Part shown: positions 1,653-29,301 of the stretch, in pieces
Layout of the letters: every line of letters starts with the position of its first letter
How positions within the stretch are numbered: the first letter of the stretch is position 1
The notes under the pieces: model-generated
What the model was told of the DNA's origin: nothing
The model's database searches: none
What the model saw: the letters and a program-made list of their open reading frames with translations, nothing else
Virus record (IMG/VR): IMGVR_UViG_3300042477_000554
Coordinates: 1 to 38,466 of that record
Reading direction: 5' to 3' (one strand)
Source: a virus
Length of the DNA: 38,466 nt
Program-made: the position numbers and the translations under genes

Positions 1653-2039
1653 TTACAGCTTGCTGATGTCCTCACCTTTCGGTTCGGCCTTCGCTTCAAC
1701 AGCTGTGCTCTTTGCACCGCCACCAAGCAATTGCTCAGCAGCCATACGAGCCAACTGGTCACCGAAGTTACCACCGTACTGTGCAGCCAAGCTTGCAGCC
1801 TGGTCAAACGCAGACATGTCAGGTACAACTTTACCGTTGGTGGTGATAATCAGGTTTCCTGATTGTCCTACGCAACGAGTTGTGAACCACAACGGTGTTC
1901 CGGTTACTTCATCCGTACGGTGATTGTCACCTTGGGCTTTTGCGAACGCCTCGAGTTGCTCTTGGGTTCCACTTACAGCATACACAAACACTGTGTTGCC
2001 ATTTTTGCTCTTGTACGAGCGGATCAACTTGATTTTCAT
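1653..2039 (-). CDS. unknown conserved protein, paralogue A
   Basis: A 128-residue protein (MKIKLIRSYKSKNGNTVFVY...) closely related to the one encoded at 2975-3358. They share long identical blocks such as RSYKSKNGNTVFVY, AFAKAQGDNHRTDE, LWFTTRC and TTNGKVVPDMSAFDQAASLA. A beta-rich N-terminal domain is followed by an alanine/glycine-rich helical stretch and a variable, likely disordered tail (EAKAEPKGEDISKL). I prefer the ATG at 2039 over an upstream in-frame ATG at 2066 because the paralogue aligns from this methionine. It has its own terminator and an upstream CAACCCCC motif (2118-2128). No family name was recognised; a small nucleic-acid or protein-binding role is possible but not shown. 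Confidence 0.7.
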   Translation of the reverse strand: MKIKLIRSYKSKNGNTVFVYAVSGTQEQLEAFAKAQGDNHRTDEVTGTPLWFTTRCVGQSGNLIITTNGKVVPDMSAFDQAASLAAQYGGNFGDQLARMAAEQLLGGGAKSTAVEAKAEPKGEDISKL

Positions 2040-2117
2040 CTTGAGTTGGATTTTTGGGTTAAACATTATGTCTCACATATCTCCATATCCTGACTATGGA
2101 GCCAATGTGTCCTGAGA

Positions 2118-2144: not shown

Positions 2145-2225
2145 GTTAATAAGTGAGCGAGAATGCCGGCTCAAGACAAGAGTTACTGACATGTCTTGCA
2201 CTTCTCAACGTTCTCGCGTTAATAA
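2145..2225. repeat. structured repeat element, copy A
   Basis: GTTAATAAGTGA at 2145 leads into a stem GCGAGAATG (2157-2165) / CGTTCTCGC (2209-2217), followed by a second GTTAATAA. A related element lies at 2351-2417. It could be a small RNA on either strand, a leader, or a replication or regulatory site. It contains no convincing ORF, although a 15-codon minus-strand ORF ends at its edge (2227-2274). Confidence 0.35.
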
Positions 2226-2293
2226 CTCATGGCATCATGAGATAGTCAGGCCGTACCGGACGACTCTCAGTCATGCCTAAAAGTTCTAAGGAG

Positions 2294-2304
2294 AAGGGGG
2301 TTGG
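2294..2304 (-). promoter_or_regulatory. CAACCCCC motif, orphan copy
   Basis: Minus-strand CCCAACCCCCTTC. No ordinary gene follows directly on the minus strand, only a possible 15-residue ORF (2227-2274) and structured element A. Confidence 0.4.
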
Positions 2305-2334
2305 GAAGAGATCGAGTACTGAGCAAATGCTTTT

Positions 2335-2350
2335 CCGACAAATTTGTCGG
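2335..2350. promoter_or_regulatory. operator-like palindrome, copy 3 (perfect)
   Basis: CCGACAAATTTGTCGG is a perfect 16-bp palindrome. Related copies lie at 1453-1468 and 1560-1575. It abuts structured element B. Confidence 0.5.
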
Positions 2351-2417
2351 TTGATAAGTGAGCGGGAAGGCTTCTATATGGCAGAATCACAGGCACTTAG
2401 GCGTGTTCATTTCTCGC
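2351..2417. repeat. structured repeat element, copy B
   Basis: TTGATAAGTGA is followed by the stem GCGGGAA (2362-2368) / TTCTCGC (2411-2417). The order and outer sequence match element A at 2145-2225, while the loop sequences differ. Conserved stems with divergent loops are typical of structured RNA or of protein-binding hairpins. Confidence 0.35.
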
Positions 2418-2974: not shown

Positions 2975-3358
2975 TTAGAACTGCTCTTCAGGTGCGTCCT
3001 GAGGTGTGTTCTGTGGTACGCTGGCTGTGTTGCCGCGATGTCCCAGCAATTGCTCTGCTGCGGCTTTGGCAAGCTGGTCGCCCAAGTTACCGCCGTATTG
3101 CTTGGCAAGGCTGGCTGCCTGGTCGAAGGCGCTCATGTCGGGAACGACCTTACCGTTCGTGGTAATGATGAGTTCGCCCGTATTACCGATGCAACGTGTG
3201 GTGAACCAAAGCGGCTTACCTGTTGTTTCGTCGGTACGATGGTTGTCGCCCTGTGCCTTGGCAAACGCTTCAAGTTCGTCTGCTTTGCCTGATACGCCGT
3301 ATACGAATACGGTGTTACCGTTCTTGCTCTTGTAAGAGCGCATAAGTGTTGCTTTCAT
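2975..3358 (-). CDS. unknown conserved protein, paralogue B
   Basis: A 127-residue protein (MKATLMRSYKSKNGNTVFVY...), paralogous to 1653-2039 along nearly its whole length, diverging mainly in the last 25 residues (GHRGNTASVPQNTPQDAPEE). The start at 3358 is the methionine aligned with the paralogue; the ATG nine codons upstream is less likely. The leader reads AATCCAATCATC before the ATG, resembling the leaders of neighbouring cassettes. It has its own terminator and CAACCCCC motif. Retention of two similar copies in a compact genome suggests dosage or slightly different partners. The function was not recognised. Confidence 0.7.
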   Translation of the reverse strand: MKATLMRSYKSKNGNTVFVYGVSGKADELEAFAKAQGDNHRTDETTGKPLWFTTRCIGNTGELIITTNGKVVPDMSAFDQAASLAKQYGGNLGDQLAKAAAEQLLGHRGNTASVPQNTPQDAPEEQF

Positions 3359-3397
3359 GATGATTGGATTTAGATGGTTAAACAATATTTGTTACCC

Positions 3398-5416: not shown

Positions 5417-5489
5417 GGAGCTATAGCAAAGACGGTCTATGCGTGGGACTGAAAATCCTGAGATCCTGGTTCGATACCAGGTGGCTCCA
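5417..5489 (+). tRNA. tRNA-Phe (GAA)
   Basis: Acceptor GGAGCTA / TGGCTCC, anticodon loop CTGAAAA, T-arm CCTGG-TTCGATA-CCAGG, discriminator A. CCA is not encoded, but C74 is. Confidence 0.95.
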
Positions 5490-5495
5490 CTGATT

Positions 5496-5579
5496 GGGAA
5501 CTGATAGTCGTTTTGGATACGGCAGCCGGACTGTAAATTCGGTCTCTTCGGGGGAGTGGTTCGAGTCCACCAGGTCCCA
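5496..5579 (+). tRNA. tRNA-Tyr (GTA)
   Basis: Anticodon loop CTGTAAA with stem CCGGA / TTCGG. It has a long variable arm as expected for bacterial Tyr, and one A-G mismatch in the acceptor stem. Discriminator A, then C. Confidence 0.93.
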
Positions 5580-5585
5580 CAACAT

Positions 5586-5679
5586 GGAAAGTGAAGCAGT
5601 GGCATTGGAGCCGCGACCGGTCTTGAAAACCGGGTGTCGGGTGATAAACTTGACTGGGGGTCGGGTCCTCCGCTTTCCG
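5586..5679 (+). tRNA. tRNA-Ser (TGA)
   Basis: Acceptor GGAAAGT / GCTTTCC, anticodon loop CTTGAAA with a perfect 5-bp stem, and a very long variable arm (94 nt in all). The T-loop GTCGGGT departs from the usual TTCGA form. Discriminator G followed by an encoded CCA. Confidence 0.88.
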
Positions 5680-5683
5680 CCAT

Positions 5684-5756
5684 ACATGAGTAGCTCAGTC
5701 GGTAGAGCTCTGGTCTCCAAAACCAGTGGTCGGAGGTTCGAACCCTTCCTCATGTG
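5684..5756 (+). tRNA. tRNA-Trp (CCA)
   Basis: Acceptor ACATGAG / CTCATGT, anticodon loop CTCCAAA, stem CTGGT / ACCAG. Discriminator G, then C. Confidence 0.95.
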
Positions 5757-5762
5757 CAAAAT

Positions 5763-5786
5763 GTTTCCCTCATTAATGAGGGAAAC
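5763..5786. other. perfect 24-bp palindrome after tRNA-Trp
   Basis: GTTTCCCTCATT followed by its exact complement. As RNA it makes a hairpin with almost no loop. There is no U-tract, so a processing or stability element is more likely than a terminator. Confidence 0.6.
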
Positions 5787-5806
5787 AAAGTATAACTATC
5801 TGAGCG

Positions 5807-5838
5807 TTATTTTACTTTAACGCCTGAAAGTAAAATAA
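5807..5838. other. 12-bp inverted repeat abutting tRNA-Cys
   Basis: TTATTTTACTTT (5807-5818) / AAAGTAAAATAA (5827-5838) with an 8-nt loop. It ends at the base before tRNA-Cys, so the hairpin would stack on the tRNA 5' end and may guide RNase P cutting. Confidence 0.6.
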
Positions 5839-5911
5839 GGTACCGTGGATGAGCGGTTTAGTCCTCAGTCTGCAAAACTCGAGTACGCGTGTTCGAATCA
5901 CGCCGGTACCT
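5839..5911 (+). tRNA. tRNA-Cys (GCA)
   Basis: Acceptor GGTACCG / CGGTACC, anticodon loop CTGCAAA. The anticodon stem has one C-C mismatch. Discriminator T, then C. Confidence 0.92.
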
Positions 5912-5916
5912 CTTCC

Positions 5917-6000
5917 GGAAAGTAAACCTACCTGGGTAGGAGCAGCCTGCTAAGCTGTCTGGTCGCAGTAGCGACTGTGGATCAGGGCCACTGCTTTCCG
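5917..6000 (+). tRNA. tRNA-Ser (GCT)
   Basis: Acceptor GGAAAGT / GCTTTCC is identical to that of tRNA-Ser(TGA). Anticodon loop CTGCTAA, long variable arm, discriminator G, then C. Confidence 0.93.
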
Positions 6001-6008
6001 CAACATAT

Positions 6009-6087
6009 GCCCTCTTGGCGAAATTTGGTAGACGCGCTAGACTTAGGATCTAGTCTTCGGGTGAGAGTTCGAGTCTCTCAGAGGGTA
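6009..6087 (+). tRNA. tRNA-Leu (TAG)
   Basis: Acceptor GCCCTCT / AGAGGGT, anticodon loop CTTAGGA with stem CTAGA / TCTAG. Discriminator A, with CCA encoded at 6088-6090. Confidence 0.93.
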
Positions 6088-6091
6088 CCAT

Positions 6092-6112
6092 GTGTTACTT
6101 TTATGTAACACG
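6092..6112 (+). other. spacer hairpin between the two Leu tRNAs
   Basis: GTGTTAC / GTAACAC with a TTTTAT loop, directly after the encoded CCA of tRNA-Leu(TAG). Confidence 0.55.
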
Positions 6113-6125
6113 TTTAACACATTGA

Positions 6126-6151
6126 TGAGATACAAAATTGGTTGTGTCTCA
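6126..6151 (+). other. 9-bp spacer hairpin upstream of tRNA-Leu (TAA)
   Basis: TGAGATACA (6126-6134) / TGTGTCTCA (6143-6151), all nine positions paired with one wobble, loop of 8. Confidence 0.55.
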
Positions 6152-6165
6152 CCGATGAGTTATAA

Positions 6166-6240
6166 ACTCCAGTGGCGAAACTGGTAAACGCAACAGACTT
6201 AAGATCTGTACCGCTGCCGGTTCGAGTCCGGCCTGGAGTA
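6166..6240 (+). tRNA. tRNA-Leu (TAA)
   Basis: Acceptor ACTCCAG / CTGGAGT, anticodon loop CTTAAGA with stem ACAGA / TCTGT, T-arm GCCGG-TTCGAGT-CCGGC. Discriminator A, then C. The variable arm is short for a leucine tRNA. Confidence 0.92.
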
Positions 6241-6279
6241 CAACATGTATAGAAAATCGAAAAAAGTTTGCATGTAGTG

Positions 6280-6309
6280 TTGCACATGTAAACTTTCTTT
6301 GTATATTTG
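6280..6309 (+). promoter_or_regulatory. second Bacteroidota-type vegetative promoter in the tRNA block
   Basis: TTG at 6280-6282, a 19-bp spacer, then TATATTTG at 6302-6309, with the same geometry as the promoter at 5247-5276. Start expected near 6316. Confidence 0.78.
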
Positions 6310-6315
6310 TAGCGC

Positions 6316-6471
6316 AAATGAGAAATATACAACATACGGCCCAGATGAATATTGTGCGCAAAGGCGATGAACCGTCTTGCCCGCAGGCTTGTTTTGTTGT
6401 ATCGATCATGTAATAGTTCATAACTGTCGAATACAAATAGGAGAAGCCTCGGGATAACACCGGGGCTTTTT
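6316..6471 (+). ncRNA. structured leader or small RNA 2
   Basis: An approximately 155-nt candidate transcript between a host-type promoter and an intrinsic terminator. Its central part is closed by ATACAACA / TGTTGTAT (8 bp, perfect, near 6327-6399). Smaller hairpins inside include GCC-CGCA-GGC. It shares the promoter-leader-terminator-tRNA arrangement with the leader at 5283-5416 but not its sequence. It could be a small RNA or an attenuator for the tRNAs from 6483 on. No known RNA family was recognised. Confidence 0.5.
6444..6471 (+). terminator. intrinsic terminator before tRNA-Pro
   Basis: AAGCCTCGG (6444-6452) / CCGGGGCTT (6460-6468), loop of 7, with a run of five T at 6467-6471. Confidence 0.8.
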
Positions 6472-6482
6472 CATTTTAACCC

Positions 6483-6555
6483 CGGGATGTAGTTCAGTTG
6501 GTAGAACGCGTGCTTTGGGAGCATGAGGTCGTAGGTTCGAGTCCTGCTATCCCGA
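6483..6555 (+). tRNA. tRNA-Pro (TGG)
   Basis: Acceptor CGGGATG / TATCCCG, anticodon loop TTTGGGA with stem CGTGC / GCATG. Discriminator A, then C. The C1-G72 start is typical of bacterial proline tRNA. Confidence 0.94.
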
Positions 6556-6605
6556 CTAACAGATACGGAATTGGCCGCCACAAACTGTAAAGAAAAGGGT
6601 CACTA

Positions 6606-6680
6606 GGGGTGCGGAGCTCGGTCCGGTCGAGCAGCTGCTTTGCAAGCAGAAGGTCGTGGGTTCAAATCCCACCCATTCCA
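6606..6680 (+). tRNA. tRNA-Ala (TGC)
   Basis: Anticodon loop TTTGCAA with stem CTGC / GCAG and T-arm GTGGG-TTCAAAT-CCCAC. The acceptor (GGGGTGC / CCATTCC) holds two G-T wobbles and one C-C mismatch. Discriminator A, then C. Confidence 0.9.
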
Positions 6681-6716
6681 CAAGTTGAAACAACTCCTGT
6701 AGTCCAGAAGCGGGAG

Positions 6717-6781
6717 GATGAGGAACGGTTAAAGGCCGTGTGCTATGCTGGGCGTAGTGTAAGTTCTGAAAAAGCCTCATC
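6717..6781 (+). other. tRNA-sized helix-closed spacer element 1
   Basis: GATGAGG (6717-6723) pairs perfectly with CCTCATC (6775-6781). Inside are CGG-TTAAAGG-CCG and CTATGC-TGG-GCGTAG. The total of 65 nt and the 7-bp closing stem imitate a tRNA, but no T-arm or anticodon loop is recognisable and the C74 found after true tRNAs is missing. It may be a decayed tRNA or a spacer RNA. Confidence 0.4.
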
Positions 6782-6793
6782 AGTGTTGATACT

Positions 6794-6867
6794 GCGAGTG
6801 TAGCTCAATTGGCTAGAGTACCTGCCTTCCAAGCAGGAAGTTGTGAGTTCGAGCCTCACCACTCGCT
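6794..6867 (+). tRNA. tRNA-Gly (TCC)
   Basis: Acceptor GCGAGTG / CACTCGC, anticodon loop CTTCCAA with stem CCTGC / GCAGG. Discriminator T, then C. Confidence 0.95.
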
Positions 6868-6872
6868 CTAAT

Positions 6873-6949
6873 GGTCTATGGGTCTGCTTGGTTGTGGACG
6901 CCTCCCTGTCACGGAGGATATCAGGTCGGTTCGACTCCGACATAGACCG
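6873..6949 (+). tRNA. tRNA-Asp (GTC)
   Basis: Acceptor GGTCTAT / ATAGACC, anticodon loop CTGTCAC with stem CTCC / GGAG, T-arm GTCGG-TTCGACT-CCGAC. Discriminator G, then C. Confidence 0.95.
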
Positions 6950-6953
6950 CAAT

Positions 6954-7026
6954 GGACTGTGAGCTCGGTTGGCTGAGCGGCACCCTGTTAAGGTGAGGGT
7001 CATAGGTTCGATTCCTATACAGTCCG
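6954..7026 (+). tRNA. tRNA-Asn (GTT)
   Basis: Acceptor GGACTGT / ACAGTCC, anticodon loop CTGTTAA, T-arm ATAGG-TTCGATT-CCTAT. Discriminator G, then C. Confidence 0.95.
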
Positions 7027-7033
7027 CAAACAT

Positions 7034-7105
7034 TGACATGTAGCTCAGAGGTAGAGCATCCGCCTGATACGCGGGAGGTCGTAGGTTCAATCCCTGCCAT
7101 GTCAA
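7034..7105 (+). tRNA. tRNA-Ile (GAT)
   Basis: Acceptor TGACATG / CATGTCA, anticodon loop CTGATAC with stem CCGC / GCGG. Discriminator A, then C. It reads AUC and AUU. Confidence 0.94.
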
Positions 7106-7112
7106 CTAAAAT

Positions 7113-7187
7113 AGGAGTATAGCTCAGTTGGTTCAGAGCACTTGCCTTACAAGCAAGATGTCCATGGTTCGAATCCATGTACTCCTA
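7113..7187 (+). tRNA. tRNA-Val (TAC)
   Basis: Acceptor AGGAGTA / TACTCCT, anticodon loop CTTACAA with stem CTTGC / GCAAG. Discriminator A, with CCA encoded at 7188-7190. Confidence 0.95.
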
Positions 7188-7193
7188 CCACGA

Positions 7194-7264
7194 AGATTAT
7201 GTACAACTTGTTTAAGATACGTAGGAAGAAGAAAAGCAGATCTAAGAGATCAGCATGATAATCT
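7194..7264 (+). other. tRNA-sized helix-closed spacer element 2
   Basis: AGATTAT (7194-7200) / ATAATCT (7258-7264) is a perfect 7-bp closure of a 71-nt segment that fills the gap between tRNA-Val (plus CCA) and tRNA-Lys to within 2-3 nt. Inside, a CAGAT / ATCAG arm carries a 7-nt loop CTAAGAG, but it sits near the 3' end. There is no T-loop. It may be a decayed or non-canonical tRNA. Confidence 0.4.
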
Positions 7265-7266
7265 AT

Positions 7267-7339
7267 TCCCTCGTAGCAAACCGGTTGTAGGCAGCAGACT
7301 TTTAATCTGCGGGGCTGGGTTCGACTCCCAGCGGGGGAA
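7267..7339 (+). tRNA. tRNA-Lys (TTT)
   Basis: Acceptor TCCCTCG / CGGGGGA, anticodon loop CTTTTAA with stem GCAGA / TCTGC. Discriminator A, then C. Confidence 0.95.
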
Positions 7340-7347
7340 CTGTAAGC

Positions 7348-7419
7348 GCCCCTGTAGCTCAATGGAAGAGCAAGAGACTTCTAAGCTCAAGGTTACCAGT
7401 TCGAGTCTGGTCAGGGGTT
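7348..7419 (+). tRNA. tRNA-Arg (TCT)
   Basis: Acceptor GCCCCTG / CAGGGGT, anticodon loop CTTCTAA. The anticodon stem is weak (GAG / CTC flanked by mismatches). Discriminator T, with CCA encoded at 7420-7422. Confidence 0.9.
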
Positions 7420-7428
7420 CCAAGTAAT

Positions 7429-7502
7429 AGGCCCTTAGCTCAGCTGGTCAGAGCAGTACTCTTATAAGGTAAAGGTCACTGGTTCAAACCCGGTAGGGCC
7501 TA
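7429..7502 (+). tRNA. tRNA-Ile (TAT)
   Basis: Acceptor AGGCCCT / AGGGCCT, anticodon loop CTTATAA. This reads AUA directly, unlike the lysidine-modified CAT tRNA used by most bacteria. Discriminator A, then C. Confidence 0.9.
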
Positions 7503-7510
7503 CAAAATAT

Positions 7511-7584
7511 AGCGGGGTGGACTGGAGTGGTTCCAGCTCGGTCTCATAAGCCGAACGACGTGGGTTCGAATCCCTCTCCCGCTA
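7511..7584 (+). tRNA. tRNA-Met (CAT), probably elongator
   Basis: Acceptor AGCGGGG / TCCCGCT, anticodon loop CTCATAA. It has no 1-72 mismatch and no three G-C pairs at the anticodon stem base, so it is not initiator-like. An Ile-2 identity is less likely because a TAT tRNA is present. Discriminator A, then C. Confidence 0.9.
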
Positions 7585-7587
7585 CAA

Positions 7588-7646
7588 ATGAGTGGTAATG
7601 ACGCCTGACAAAGGAGGGATATAGTACCAGGTTACCTCGCACTCAT
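7588..7646 (+). other. helix-closed spacer element 3
   Basis: ATGAGTG (7588-7594) / CACTCAT (7640-7646) closes a 59-nt segment that fills the gap between tRNA-Met and tRNA-Glu. A second helix GTAA / TTAC and a possible CCTG / CAGG with GAGG / CCTC crossing suggest a compact or pseudoknotted fold. It includes AAAGGAGG, complementary to the usual 16S rRNA 3' end. It is not a canonical tRNA. Confidence 0.4.
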
Positions 7647-7649
7647 TAT

Positions 7650-7722
7650 GTCCCGGTCATCTAGTGGTCCAGGATACTTCCCTTTCACGGAAGTCACACG
7701 GGTTCAAATCCCGTCCGGGATA
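7650..7722 (+). tRNA. tRNA-Glu (TTC)
   Basis: Acceptor GTCCCGG / CCGGGAT, anticodon loop CTTTCAC with stem CTTCC / GGAAG. Discriminator A, then C. Confidence 0.95.
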
Positions 7723-7730
7723 CAATATTA

Positions 7731-7804
7731 GCCCGAGTAGCTCAGCAGGTTAGAGCTACTGTTTTGTAAACAGAGGGTCGGCGGTTCGATTCCGTCCTCG
7801 GGCT
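7731..7804 (+). tRNA. tRNA-Thr (TGT)
   Basis: Acceptor GCCCGAG / CTCGGGC, anticodon loop TTTGTAA with stem CTGT / ACAG. Discriminator T, then C. Confidence 0.95.
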
Positions 7805-7806
7805 CT

Positions 7807-7879
7807 GTGGCCGTAGTTCAAATGGTGGAACGTCTGCTTGTGGCGCAGAAGGTTGCGGGTTCAAGTCTCGCCGGTCACC
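7807..7879 (+). tRNA. tRNA-His (GTG)
   Basis: Acceptor GTGGCCG / CGGTCAC, anticodon loop TTGTGGC with stem TCTGC / GCAGA. C73 is present, with CCA encoded at 7880-7882. Position -1 is T, not the G expected opposite C73. Confidence 0.93.
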
Positions 7880-7886
7880 CCAATTA

Positions 7887-7958
7887 GGCCCCGTGGCGCA
7901 GCGGAAGCGCTTCTGAATACGGATCAGATGGTCGGGAGTTCGAATCTCTCCGGGGTCT
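7887..7958 (+). tRNA. tRNA-Arg (ACG)
   Basis: Acceptor GGCCCCG / CGGGGTC, anticodon loop ATACGGA with stem TCTGA / TCAGA. It needs host TadA to convert A34 to inosine. Discriminator T, then C. Confidence 0.93.
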
Positions 7959-7967
7959 CTAAAATAA

Positions 7968-8038
7968 TGCCCGGTCGTCTAGCGGCAGGACATCTGGTTT
8001 TGGACCAGAGAACGGACGTTCGAATCGTTCCCGGGCAA
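7968..8038 (+). tRNA. tRNA-Gln (TTG)
   Basis: Acceptor TGCCCGG / CCGGGCA, anticodon loop TTTTGGA with stem TCTGG / CCAGA. Discriminator A, then C. It is the last tRNA of the block. Confidence 0.95.
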
Positions 8039-8045
8039 CAAAAAT

Positions 8046-24901: not shown

Positions 24902-26527
24902 ATGAGCACTCCAGTTTTAAACAATGGTCTCTTCTTACGTGACACGAACTACCAGGCTAGTTCTCACGTAGACAGCTACCACTTGGTGAACATGCTGAAA
25001 GATGCAGAGCCTATGGACCTTGGTCCGGTGGACATCTGGGCTATGACCCAGAAGGTAGAAATGCCTCTGTACCAGCTGTCATCTTTTGGTGGTAAAAACA
25101 TCATCATGGTTGACAATGCCCGCGGTGAGTACAAATGGCAAACTCCGGTAAGCCAGGATCTTCCGTACATCATCGAAGACATTGAGCCGAACAACGCCCA
25201 AAAAGGTATTGACGGTACAACCTTCAAAATCAAAATCAACCGTCGTGAGTTTGGTCACGGTGATATTATCACCTACGACAAGTACAACGGTTGTGAAATG
25301 TACATCACTGCTGATGACATCCTTCCTTTGGGAGACGGTTTTGTCTACACAGTTCAGTTGGTGAACAATGACAACTACAAGTTCCTTGACAACAAGTACC
25401 TTGCAAACGGTACTAAGATTTTCCGCAAAGGTTCTGCCCGCGGAGAATACGGGGAGCGTTTCTCTGACATCACAACCCGTGCAGGGTTCCGTGAGTTCTA
25501 CAACTTCGTAGGAGGTTCTGAAGCTCACGTTCACTACAGCGTTTCTAGCCGCGCAGACCTTATGGCTCGTGGTGGTATGAAGGCTGATGGTACAGTTCCG
25601 GTAACTGAGATCTGGCGTAACTTCGACAAGAGCCTAGATCCATCAATTGCGACCATTGAACAAATGGCTTCTAAGATGGGTAAAGACTACGTGAAGCGTG
25701 CCATGGCTAATGGTACCTTGACTCGTACATTCCTTACTACGATGGAAGCTGCCCACCTTACCAAGATTGCCACTGACATCGAAACCTACTTGATGTGGGG
25801 TCATGGTGGTCGCGTTAAGCAAGACGGTCCGGATGATATCCGTATGTCTGTGGGTCTTTGGAAACAGCTGGACAACTCGTTCAAGCGTGTGTACAACAAG
25901 AGCTCGTTCAACCTTGAGTTGTTCCGTGCTGAGCTGTACAACTTCTACGCTGGTCGTGTGGAGTTCCAGGGTCCAGATCCTAAGCGTCAGCTTATTGTTC
26001 AAACTGGTATGGGTGGTATGCGTCTTGTTAACGAGGCCATCAAGAAAGAAGCAGCTAACTCCGGTCTTGTTATCCAAGCTGCTCAAAACAACGGTATCGG
26101 AGCTATCTCAGGTCAAGGTATGGATCTTGGTTTCGGATTTGCTTACACCAGCTACGTAATTCCGTTCCTTGCGAACGTGAAGTTCGTGCTGAACCCAGCA
26201 TTCGACAACCTTCATACTAACGACATCGAGAACCCGATCATCGATGGTAACCCGCTGTCTTCTTACAGCTTTGTTATCTTCGATATCACTGACACTGGAA
26301 ACGACAACATCTTCATGTTGAAGCTTGCTTGGGATAACCAGTTGAAGTGGTGGTATCAAAACGGAACCATGGACTACATGGGACGTACTCAAGGATTCCA
26401 GTCTTCTGGACAATTCAACGGGTACCGTGTATACATGACCCAAACGATGCCGGCAATCTGGGTAAAAGACCCAACCAAGGTGTTGAAAATCGTGATGAGA
26501 AACCCAATTACGGGTGGATCATTCTAA
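24902..26527 (+). CDS. major capsid protein
   Basis: A 541-residue protein encoded directly after the scaffold. Size and order match HK97-fold crAss-like capsids. Codon choice differs from most neighbours: TTC, AAC, TAC, GGT and CGT dominate, as expected of a highly expressed gene. The leader ends CTAATCACAC before the ATG, identical to the leader of the other apparent high-expression gene at 29384. A large soluble beta-rich body with a G-loop-like stretch (GLVIQAAQNNGIGAISGQGM). It is followed by a strong hairpin and a tRNA-like element. Confidence 0.88.
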   Translation: MSTPVLNNGLFLRDTNYQASSHVDSYHLVNMLKDAEPMDLGPVDIWAMTQKVEMPLYQLSSFGGKNIIMVDNARGEYKWQTPVSQDLPYIIEDIEPNNAQKGIDGTTFKIKINRREFGHGDIITYDKYNGCEMYITADDILPLGDGFVYTVQLVNNDNYKFLDNKYLANGTKIFRKGSARGEYGERFSDITTRAGFREFYNFVGGSEAHVHYSVSSRADLMARGGMKADGTVPVTEIWRNFDKSLDPSIATIEQMASKMGKDYVKRAMANGTLTRTFLTTMEAAHLTKIATDIETYLMWGHGGRVKQDGPDDIRMSVGLWKQLDNSFKRVYNKSSFNLELFRAELYNFYAGRVEFQGPDPKRQLIVQTGMGGMRLVNEAIKKEAANSGLVIQAAQNNGIGAISGQGMDLGFGFAYTSYVIPFLANVKFVLNPAFDNLHTNDIENPIIDGNPLSSYSFVIFDITDTGNDNIFMLKLAWDNQLKWWYQNGTMDYMGRTQGFQSSGQFNGYRVYMTQTMPAIWVKDPTKVLKIVMRNPITGGSF

Positions 26528-26537
26528 TACCCGCGCC

Positions 26538-26565
26538 GAGAGAGGGGTTTTTGAATCCCTCTCTC
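26538..26565 (+). terminator. hairpin after the capsid gene
   Basis: GAGAGAGGG (26538-26546) / CCCTCTCTC (26557-26565), nine perfect pairs with a 10-nt loop. No T-tract follows, so partial termination or mRNA end protection fits better than full termination. Confidence 0.6.
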
Positions 26566-26577
26566 AATGGTGCACAT

Positions 26578-26631
26578 GCCTAGATGGTTACTTGAAATAG
26601 AGTCGCGATAGGTTCGATCCTGATCTAGGCG
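26578..26631 (+). other. 54-nt tRNA-like element without D-arm
   Basis: GCCTAGA (26578-26584) pairs perfectly with TCTAGGC (26624-26630). A T-arm ATAGG-TTCGAT-CCTGA (four of five pairs) keeps the conserved TTCGA core. In the middle lies CTTGAAA, the same anticodon loop as tRNA-Ser(TGA) at 5586. The pieces add up as 7+1+5+7+5+5+5+6+5+7+1, with no room for a D-arm. Discriminator G is followed by CAA, as after true tRNAs in this window. It may be a decayed tRNA-Ser or a processing signal between capsid and downstream mRNA. Confidence 0.55.
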
Positions 26632-26661
26632 CAATGTCACACAAACCAACAAAACCAACGT

Positions 26662-27678
26662 ATGAGTAAGATTACTATGACAGAAGTTCCTACGGTCTCA
26701 GACCAAGGGAAGATCGCAATTAGACCGTTCTTTGACCCGAATGTGGAAAACCTAGGCCTTCAGAATTACCAGATGGTAGTTTACGAAGGAGTTTTTCATG
26801 AGGAACAACTCGCCTGTATCGAGATGAATGGTACTAAGCGCTACATCACCGGATTGAATCCTTTCGCTCCTGATGTGAAAGTCCTTCCTCAGGAAGAACG
26901 TGAAGCTCGTATCAACGAGATAAACAGAAAGGTTGCCCAACTTGAGGCTGAGCTTAATGCCAATATCCTTGATCCTAAGGATCCGGATTTCTGGAATAAG
27001 GTGAAGCTGCTTCGTCCAGATAACTATGATTTCTGGGAGAAGATTACAATCCGCTGCGGTAATCAACCGGTTCCTCTTGATCCGGAACATAACCCTTGGG
27101 ATATGATCAAGGTGTGCGCTATCGAAGCTGGAGGATTTTCAATTGTAGCTAAAAGCTACGAGGATGCCCGAAGCAGAGCTGTTGCTCCTAAGTTTTACCT
27201 GGATAAGGATATCCATACTGTGGCTACCAAGACTGAAGTTAAGAAACTTCGCAACAAGGCCCTTTCAGAACTTGAGAAGATGTTCAAGAACAATCAGAAC
27301 AAGCTTATGTATGTGGCTAAGGTGGTTGATGGAAACAGCGTTCAGTACAAGAAGTCTACTCCAAATGATGTGATCTATGACAACATGGATCGATTCATCA
27401 CAGGAGAAGGTGTTGAGAAAAACTTGCGTAGAGCGGCCGAACAATTCTTGGCAGCTGCGGAACTTGACATCGAGACTTTAAAGCTGAAAGCTCTTATCCG
27501 AGATGCAAGCTTCTACAAGTTGATTGCTCCTAAATCTGATGGTATGATTTATCACATGAATACCATGAGTATGATGGGTCGCAATTCACACGAATGCTTG
27601 GAGTACCTGAAGAATCCTATGAATGATAAGGTTCTTGCAGAACTCTTAAGTGTAGTAGAGGCCTACTGGAAGAAATAA
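26662..27678 (+). CDS. conserved virion protein following the capsid gene
   Basis: A 338-residue soluble protein starting MSKITMTEVPTVSDQGKIAI. An N-terminal beta part (to about 90), then a helical charged region (EEREARINEINRKVAQLEAE) and a C-terminal helical domain (KNLRRAAEQFLAAAELDIET). In crAss-like genomes a protein of this kind follows the capsid gene; an auxiliary head or vertex role is likely but unproven. Leader AAACCAACAAAACCAACGT before the ATG. Confidence 0.65.
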   Translation: MSKITMTEVPTVSDQGKIAIRPFFDPNVENLGLQNYQMVVYEGVFHEEQLACIEMNGTKRYITGLNPFAPDVKVLPQEEREARINEINRKVAQLEAELNANILDPKDPDFWNKVKLLRPDNYDFWEKITIRCGNQPVPLDPEHNPWDMIKVCAIEAGGFSIVAKSYEDARSRAVAPKFYLDKDIHTVATKTEVKKLRNKALSELEKMFKNNQNKLMYVAKVVDGNSVQYKKSTPNDVIYDNMDRFITGEGVEKNLRRAAEQFLAAAELDIETLKLKALIRDASFYKLIAPKSDGMIYHMNTMSMMGRNSHECLEYLKNPMNDKVLAELLSVVEAYWKK

Positions 27679-28063: not shown

Positions 28064-28768
28064 ATGGATAACAACACCATATTCCTAAAGGTTAAGCAAC
28101 GTCTTAACAAACTTGCCAGCAACGATTATGATAATATCGAATGCTGGCAAGTTGTTGAGGCTTTTAACAAAGGCCAAGTAGAGTGGTGTCGTAGAAACCT
28201 TCATGGTACTAACATTAAGCAAGAGGGAGACGAACAATCTAAAAGAAGGATTGATGATCTTCAGAGACTACTGAAGCCTCTTCCTTTAGTGATGACAGAT
28301 CGTCAACTCTTTTATGAATCTCCTGCTCTTCCCGGAGATTACATGGAGTGGAAAAGGATCTCAGCTCAAGCTGTAAATCCTTGCTGCGATAAGCCTCGCC
28401 GAATAATCATCTACCTCGCCGAAGAAGCAAACGTAGATGAGTTACTTCGAGATAAGAACAAGCAGCCTAGTTACGAATGGGGAGAGACTTTTTGTACACT
28501 CATTGATAACAAGATCCGCATCTATACTGATGGTAAATTTGCGGTAGCGAATACTGAGTTGTACTATTACCGTCAACCAGTGAGAATCCAGATGCTAAAT
28601 TGCGTGGATCCTTATACTCAACAGACAAGTACTGTAGATATTCCATGTGAGTTTAAAGACGACATGGTAGAGGTATTCATCGATGAAGCCGTTAAGATTA
28701 TCGCCGGAGATATCGAATCGTTGAACCAGATGCAAAGAGCATCTCAATCTGTAGAACAGAATAACTAA
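28064..28768 (+). CDS. head-tail connector or ring-protein candidate
   Basis: A 234-residue protein starting MDNNTIFLKVKQRLNKLASN. A helical N-terminal third (NIECWQVVEAFNKGQVEWCR), a beta middle (IIIYLAEEANVDELL, KIRIYTDGKFAVANTELYYY) and an acidic helical end (DDMVEVFIDEAVKIIAGDIE) resemble the first ring or adaptor protein between portal and tail in crAss-like phages. Overlaps the ferritin gene by one base (TAATG). Confidence 0.6.
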   Translation: MDNNTIFLKVKQRLNKLASNDYDNIECWQVVEAFNKGQVEWCRRNLHGTNIKQEGDEQSKRRIDDLQRLLKPLPLVMTDRQLFYESPALPGDYMEWKRISAQAVNPCCDKPRRIIIYLAEEANVDELLRDKNKQPSYEWGETFCTLIDNKIRIYTDGKFAVANTELYYYRQPVRIQMLNCVDPYTQQTSTVDIPCEFKDDMVEVFIDEAVKIIAGDIESLNQMQRASQSVEQNN

Positions 28769-29301
28769 TGGAAGCACTAAAGCGCCCTGTACGTAAATCT
28801 CGTAACCCGCTTTTAAGCGAGGCGAGTGAGAAACTTCTCAACTTTCGAATAGAGCAAGAGGAAGCTTCTGCTCGTTTATACTTGGCAATGTCTATGTGCC
28901 TGAATAATGAGGGTTATACCGGTGCTGCTAAGTTGTGGAAAAAATATTCTGACGAGGAAATGGCTCATGCTGACTGGGCCCGTAATTATCTTCTGGCTAT
29001 GGGTGTAACACCGGCAACCCCTATGTTACAGAAGCCGAAGACAGAATTTCCAGGATGCTTGGCTGAAATTATCAAAGACAGCTTTGAGCATGAGATCATT
29101 GTTACCAAGCAGATAAAAGCTTTGGCAGCTGACGCTTTCAAGCAAGCAGATCACATGTTGTATGAATTAGCTCTTTCTTACCTGAAAGAACAGGTAGAGG
29201 AGCATGACAAAACCCAAACTTGGCTCGATAAGCTTATGACTTTCGGATCTGATCCGTTGGCTTTACGCTTACTTGATAACGAGATGGGAGAAGGATTGTA
29301 A
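28768..29301 (+). CDS. ferritin with intact di-iron centre
   Basis: A 177-residue four-helix protein aligning along its length with bacterial non-haem ferritins. All ligands expected from E. coli FtnA are present by alignment: E31 (FtnA E17), Y38 (Y24), E63/E64 and H67 in DEEMAH (E49/E50, H53), E109 (E94) in EHEI, Q142 and E144/E145 in EQVEEHD. It should oxidise and store iron. It is translationally coupled to a connector-like gene (TAATG) inside the structural operon, which suggests late expression or a place in the virion. Confidence 0.9.
   Translation: MEALKRPVRKSRNPLLSEASEKLLNFRIEQEEASARLYLAMSMCLNNEGYTGAAKLWKKYSDEEMAHADWARNYLLAMGVTPATPMLQKPKTEFPGCLAEIIKDSFEHEIIVTKQIKALAADAFKQADHMLYELALSYLKEQVEEHDKTQTWLDKLMTFGSDPLALRLLDNEMGEGL

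Follow-up and report, generated by a model that had tools for sequence, protein, structure and literature searches.

In the MALAT1/mascRNA system, an RNase P cut at a tRNA-like element makes an RNA 3' end that finishes in a protective structure. The M3 RNA of phi80 and the C4 antisense RNA of P1/P7 are phage transcripts that host RNase P cuts through their resemblance to pre-tRNA. The tRNA-like domain of tmRNA and the tRNA-like structures of plant viruses keep the acceptor/T-arm half, with the D-arm absent or replaced by T-loop contacts. In tRNA itself, a 7-bp acceptor stem is stacked on a 5-bp T-arm, which gives 12 bp closed by a 7-nt T-loop (UUCRANN), and the anticodon arm has 5 bp and a 7-nt loop. 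Gut phages also carry theta ribozymes, HDV-like self-cleaving nested pseudoknots that lie beside true tRNAs (PMC10879173).

We analysed a 38-kb IMG/VR virus record of an uncultivated crAss-like phage (38,466 nucleotides, the whole stretch being called the window below), in which the capsid mRNA carries a tRNA-like element at its 3' end, behind the major capsid protein (MCP) gene. We consider it probable that this is a tRNA-mimicking 3' processing element. It shares with MALAT1/mascRNA the order of transcript, protective 3' structure and tRNA-like fold, together with a proposed formation of the 3' end by RNase P. It differs in that the transcript is a phage protein-coding mRNA, the protective structure is a hairpin and not a triple helix, the D-arm is missing and the cleavage is a prediction. 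With the M3 and C4 RNAs it would share cutting by host RNase P, but those are separate small RNAs, whereas this element forms part of a capsid mRNA, at the 3' end, and is kept across a large phage group. Like tmRNA and the plant-virus structures, it conserves the acceptor/T-arm half, with the D-arm absent or replaced by T-loop contacts; unlike them, it has no resume codon or tag frame, is not at a genome end, does not encode CCA and has a variable middle. Theta ribozymes resemble it as phage RNA elements connected with processing of the tRNA type, in phages whose presumed hosts are Bacteroidota and Bacillota (PMC10879173), but the capsid mRNA element has no Rfam ribozyme match. Rfam 15, which includes the known self-cleaving ribozymes, returned nothing at the element when the window was searched at gathering score or a 201-nt stretch at E<=10, nor did nine relatives give a match there at E<=5, and we rejected a self-cleaving ribozyme on this basis. 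No published description of such an element was found in the open-access literature. It most likely represents a new RNA family among tRNA-like processing elements.

Architecture of the element behind the capsid gene

The terminase (18498), portal (20711) and MCP genes are consecutive in the window, and ARAGORN called 23 tRNA genes at 5417-8039, tRNA-Ser(TGA) among them. Cultured phages showed no DNA similarity to the window, and MCP relatives among GenBank phages reached at most 29% identity. No such element was seen in the post-MCP gap of Leptolyngbya phage Lbo-JY46, csAss, Cellulophaga phi4:1 and cr10_1 (four records). Elsewhere in the window, a ferritin-like protein gene (28768-29301; Pfam PF00210, E 3.8e-22) lies among the virion structural genes, and the ORFs at 1653-2066 (-) and 2975-3385 (-), which resemble each other, encode about 137 aa, have RSYKSKNGNTVFVY... 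in common and give no Pfam match, are apparently paralogues.

The tRNA-like element occupies 26578-26634 and starts 50 nt past the MCP stop, which ends at 26527 (table 1). A preliminary description had placed a D-armless element at 26578-26631, at this distance from the stop. Our fold confirmed the missing D-arm and the T-arm with TTCGAT (P3, 4 bp and a 6-nt loop), while the acceptor-like stem, given as a perfect 7 bp, is present with 8 bp. Ahead of it stands P0, a 5+12-bp hairpin that begins just past the MCP stop, with no U-tract directly after it; the linker between the two is 2-6 nt long in relatives. P1 (8 bp) and P3 (4 bp) make up a 12-bp stack followed by N73-C-A-A. The length of the tRNA acceptor/T stack is thus matched, and the 12-nt 3' strand recurs in 50 elements, split 8+4 in the window.

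Table 1. Coordinates of the capsid gene, the parts of the element and the neighbouring gene in the window.
Feature	Position	Strand	Basis or remark
MCP gene, 541 aa	24902..26527	+	Pfam PF23898 Crass_capsid, E 5.3e-32; phrog_11589 major head protein
P0 hairpin, outer helix GCGCC/GGTGC	26533-26537 with 26569-26573 (whole P0 26533..26573)	+	fold
P0 inner helix, 12 bp	26538-26549 with 26554-26565	+	fold
P0 asymmetric bulge	26566-26568	+	fold
Linker ACAT	26574..26577	+	sequence; predicted RNase P cut at its 3' end (26577/26578)
P1 5' strand GCCTAGAT, acceptor-like	26578..26585	+	pairs with 26623-26630; covariation
P2 variable hairpin GU-U-ACUU(GAAAUA)GAGU-C-GC	26587..26606	+	fold
P3 T-arm-like hairpin TAGG(TTCGAT)CCTG	26609..26622	+	fold; stem 26609-26612 with 26619-26622, including one G-U; loop letters conserved
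P1 3' strand ATCTAGGC, joined to P3 without gap (contiguous 12-nt 3' strand)	26623..26630	+	12-nt 3' strand in 50 distinct relatives
Discriminator-like G (26631) and trailer CAA (N73-C74-A-A)	26631..26634	+	C74 in 50/50 relatives; trailer common to true window tRNAs
Downstream gene, 338 aa, no assigned function; neighbour, outside the element	26662..27678	+	open reading frame

The folding energy of the element alone is unremarkable (z = -1.63). The specific architecture, by contrast, seldom arises by chance: among 2000 dinucleotide shuffles of 26528-26661, the pairing score of 29 was reached in 6, and a score of at least 26 combined with the loop NUYR and C74 in 2. The T-loop of the window copy, UUCGAU, has 6 nt; most relatives have 7 nt with U55-Y56-R57, and A58 is usually absent. 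The window copy also does without a junction/T-loop pairing present in other subtypes (see below), and this absence and the 6-nt loop are the main uncertainty for the window copy itself. As for the trailer, described earlier as that of the true tRNAs, the likeness extends to 18/23 tRNAs of the window, in which C74 is followed by A or U, and not to the other 5/23, which have CCA.

The letters CTTGAAA (26591-26597) equal the anticodon loop of tRNA-Ser(TGA) and, with the tRNA-like T-loop and trailer, speak for a functional tRNA such as the D-armless serine tRNA first considered. They fall within P2, however, where CTT is paired in the stem and fold and relatives agree on GAAAUA as the loop; used as an anticodon loop, they would be closed by 3 bp only. 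A P2 U-G pair becomes U-A in the sister L223, and a CTTGAAA-like anticodon loop is absent from L012, L226, L225 and all other subtypes. The phage already has a tRNA-Ser(TGA). ARAGORN, run on the window, did not call the element a tRNA, and the Rfam tRNA model RF00005 did not match it at gathering score, nor at E<=10 on the 201-nt stretch. We therefore abandoned the serine tRNA and regard a functional tRNA as highly improbable. P2 differs widely in sequence and length among relatives, and the P1-P3 interval, at the position of the D and anticodon arms of tRNA, ranges from 12 to 35 nt among the 50 elements. This variability points to tRNA-processing enzymes, and not to decoding, as the reason why the fold is maintained. 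A P2/P3 loop-loop kissing of GAA with UUC is possible in the window subtype; it has only 3 bp, is inconsistent in L224 and L196, and we do not claim it.

Conservation in relatives and exchange with terminators

Relatives were gathered from IMG/VR through the MCP and also through the downstream gene, and 161 distinct post-MCP regions were compared. They are of two main kinds. The majority have a short hairpin and then a T run, while about 34 have, in most cases, P0 with its asymmetric 3' bulge a few bases past the stop, followed by the tRNA-like fold. The core of this fold is constant: P1 of 7-8 bp and P3 of 5-4 bp, 3' strands joined without gap into 12 nt, a loop of 6-7 nt and N-C-[A/U]-A. Because MAFFT failed to align P1 across subtypes, we used a scripted descriptor of the core (including loop NUYR and C74) in place of a covariance model. 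It matched 24/161 distinct post-MCP regions against 1/483 shuffles, and it recovers most true tRNAs in G001, the contig of L195. Across 22 distinct elements, 12/12 stem pairs vary, each with changes on both sides, and 95% of cells are paired. On G001 we also noted three unusually long tRNA-model matches that ARAGORN does not call, at 120625-120739 (-), 2186-2353 (-) and 119940-120002 (-), and one further D-armless-looking descriptor match with the trailer ACTAA.

An IMG/VR-wide pattern scan, seeded with the 5' half of one subtype only, found 56 places, about 42 of them with the complete fold. An MCP gene ends 70-436 nt upstream of all but one of the complete folds; the exception, L401, has only 67 nt of upstream sequence. 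Incomplete matches lie elsewhere than behind an MCP, except in L381 (7918-7934, minus strand), where the MCP is followed by the 5' half alone, with a start codon immediately after it. As this natural truncation indicates, the element can be dispensed with. Elements added by the scan had not been chosen for C74 or for the loop letters. In the pool of 50 distinct IMG/VR elements, essentially all located 3' of a crAss-type MCP, 96.7% of stem pairs are formed, with double-sided changes at every stem position, and C74 (50/50), U55 (49/50), Y56 (50/50) and R57 (50/50) are kept. Within one subtype 96.1% are paired by the tool's own count, against 34-41% when slid. L244 and L289 fit 11 bp, not 12.

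Pairing is also maintained outside the core. The outer helix of P0 has 10 different pair sets in 21 relatives, with 105/105 cells paired (0/5000 permutations). In the non-window subtypes, loop positions 56-58 pair with a triplet that follows P1, and this pairing is compensated in 23/23 relatives; six triplet combinations account for 69/69 cells (0/20000 permutations, the triplets having been read by eye). This second pairing resembles the D-loop/T-loop contact of tRNA. In six more distant relatives (L236, L244, L250, L267, L289 and L294), P0 and the tRNA-like fold are separated by additional sequence that forms hairpins; the capsid 3' UTR can thus reach a greater size and complexity.

The preliminary description had made its case depend in part on homologous intergenic regions, and on that point it holds, since the stem and T-loop are kept there. 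These substitution patterns mark the element as real and conserved under selection for structure. A decayed tRNA relic, also raised earlier, or a chance fold could be imagined in a phage with 23 tRNA genes, one of which, tRNA-Asn, has an 11-nt identity with the element (ATAGGTTCGAT). The similarity to tRNA-Asn reaches only the 95% level of shuffles, though, and none is significant against the 23 tRNAs. Three contigs of 120-130 kb have a single copy, behind the MCP, and no tRNA gene was matched in the carriers G002, G004 and G006 (120, 131 and 73 kb), against 23 in the window phage; the element is thus not debris of a tRNA array. With covariation across diverged relatives and a descriptor found in 1/483 shuffles, a relic or chance fold has almost no probability left, and we gave up this reading.

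The element might instead belong to the downstream gene as a 5' UTR or regulatory element, for example a tRNA-like translational operator. The start codon at 26662 comes 28 nt after it in the window, and a homologue of the gene follows closely in many carriers. In seven others (L187, L023, L183, L184, L235, L180 and L201), however, this homologue starts 687-822 nt from the MCP, leaving space for a further gene behind the element, which shows that the element stays with the MCP. In L034 a different gene comes next. The element remains near the MCP, and we consider a role for the downstream gene improbable. A point against the capsid mRNA reading, on the other hand, is the small gene that separates MCP and element in L252, L258, L249, L247 and L034.

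The element also stands where other phages have terminators. A U-tract terminator follows 86/119 MCPs without the element and 1/34 with it; Fisher's p of 5e-14 is uncorrected for ancestry, and significance is lost when shared descent is taken into account, which leaves 3 supported independent pairs. The MCP tree requires 12 or more changes of the trait, only 3 of them on strong branches, and the phylogenetic sign test of the swap has low power. Three phages whose MCP is close to that of the window (L001, L002 and L198) have an intrinsic terminator at the same place, which begins with a GC-rich hairpin as the window does; the window has the GC-rich hairpin (P0) and no U-tract, and a tRNA-like fold follows the hairpin. 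Structure, covariation, position behind the MCP and replacement of terminators are established here by comparison of sequences.

These data bear on a further reading, in which the 3' end stays uncut and the hairpin and tRNA-like fold block 3' exonucleases or pause or terminate the polymerase. The element does occupy the place of U-tract terminators, and P0 is strong, folding at around -20 to -32 kcal/mol. But no U-tract follows the hairpin, and this reading gives no account of the T-loop letters, the constant 12-bp length of the stack or the C74 shared with tRNA. An uncut 3' end is unlikely, if less so than the other alternatives.

A candidate route to the capsid mRNA 3' end

RNase P acts as a ruler that binds and measures the stack of acceptor stem and T stem-loop (PMC4919913). 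A hairpin made up of acceptor stem, T-stem and T-loop is enough for a substrate, and the known substrates other than tRNA include the phage M3 and C4 RNAs and certain mRNAs (PMC11143913). The capsid element combines an acceptor/T stack, a T-loop and a C74 on the 3' side. The earlier proposal of a tRNA-like element in the 3' region of the capsid mRNA thus stands, with the geometry that RNase P measures.

From this geometry we infer cleavage by RNase P, the enzyme involved, protection of the mRNA and an effect on capsid level, as follows. P1 would stack on P3 to give a helix of 12 bp, closed by the T-loop and as long as the acceptor/T-arm stack of tRNA, with P2 as the variable part inserted where tRNA has its core. 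Host RNase P would measure this stack and cut near 26577/26578, and the RNA past the discriminator at 26631 may be trimmed by RNase Z, or by exonucleases with subsequent CCA addition. After the RNase P cut, the strong P0 hairpin would stand at the end of the capsid mRNA, where it could resist 3' exonucleases, and the message would be separated from the downstream cistron.

Extending this to the whole group, we lean slightly towards the view that a large environmental group of crAss-like phages forms capsid mRNA 3' ends by tRNA mimicry, with an RNase P cut in the place of termination, repeatedly swapped with terminators, as a phage counterpart of MALAT1/mascRNA. Since a plain terminator occupies the corresponding site in close relatives, the exchange would be a natural experiment on the level of the capsid message. 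The element would be an undescribed RNA family in a much-studied, mostly uncultivated phage order and, if the proposal is true, these phages would make mRNA 3' ends with the tRNA-processing machinery in place of a terminator.
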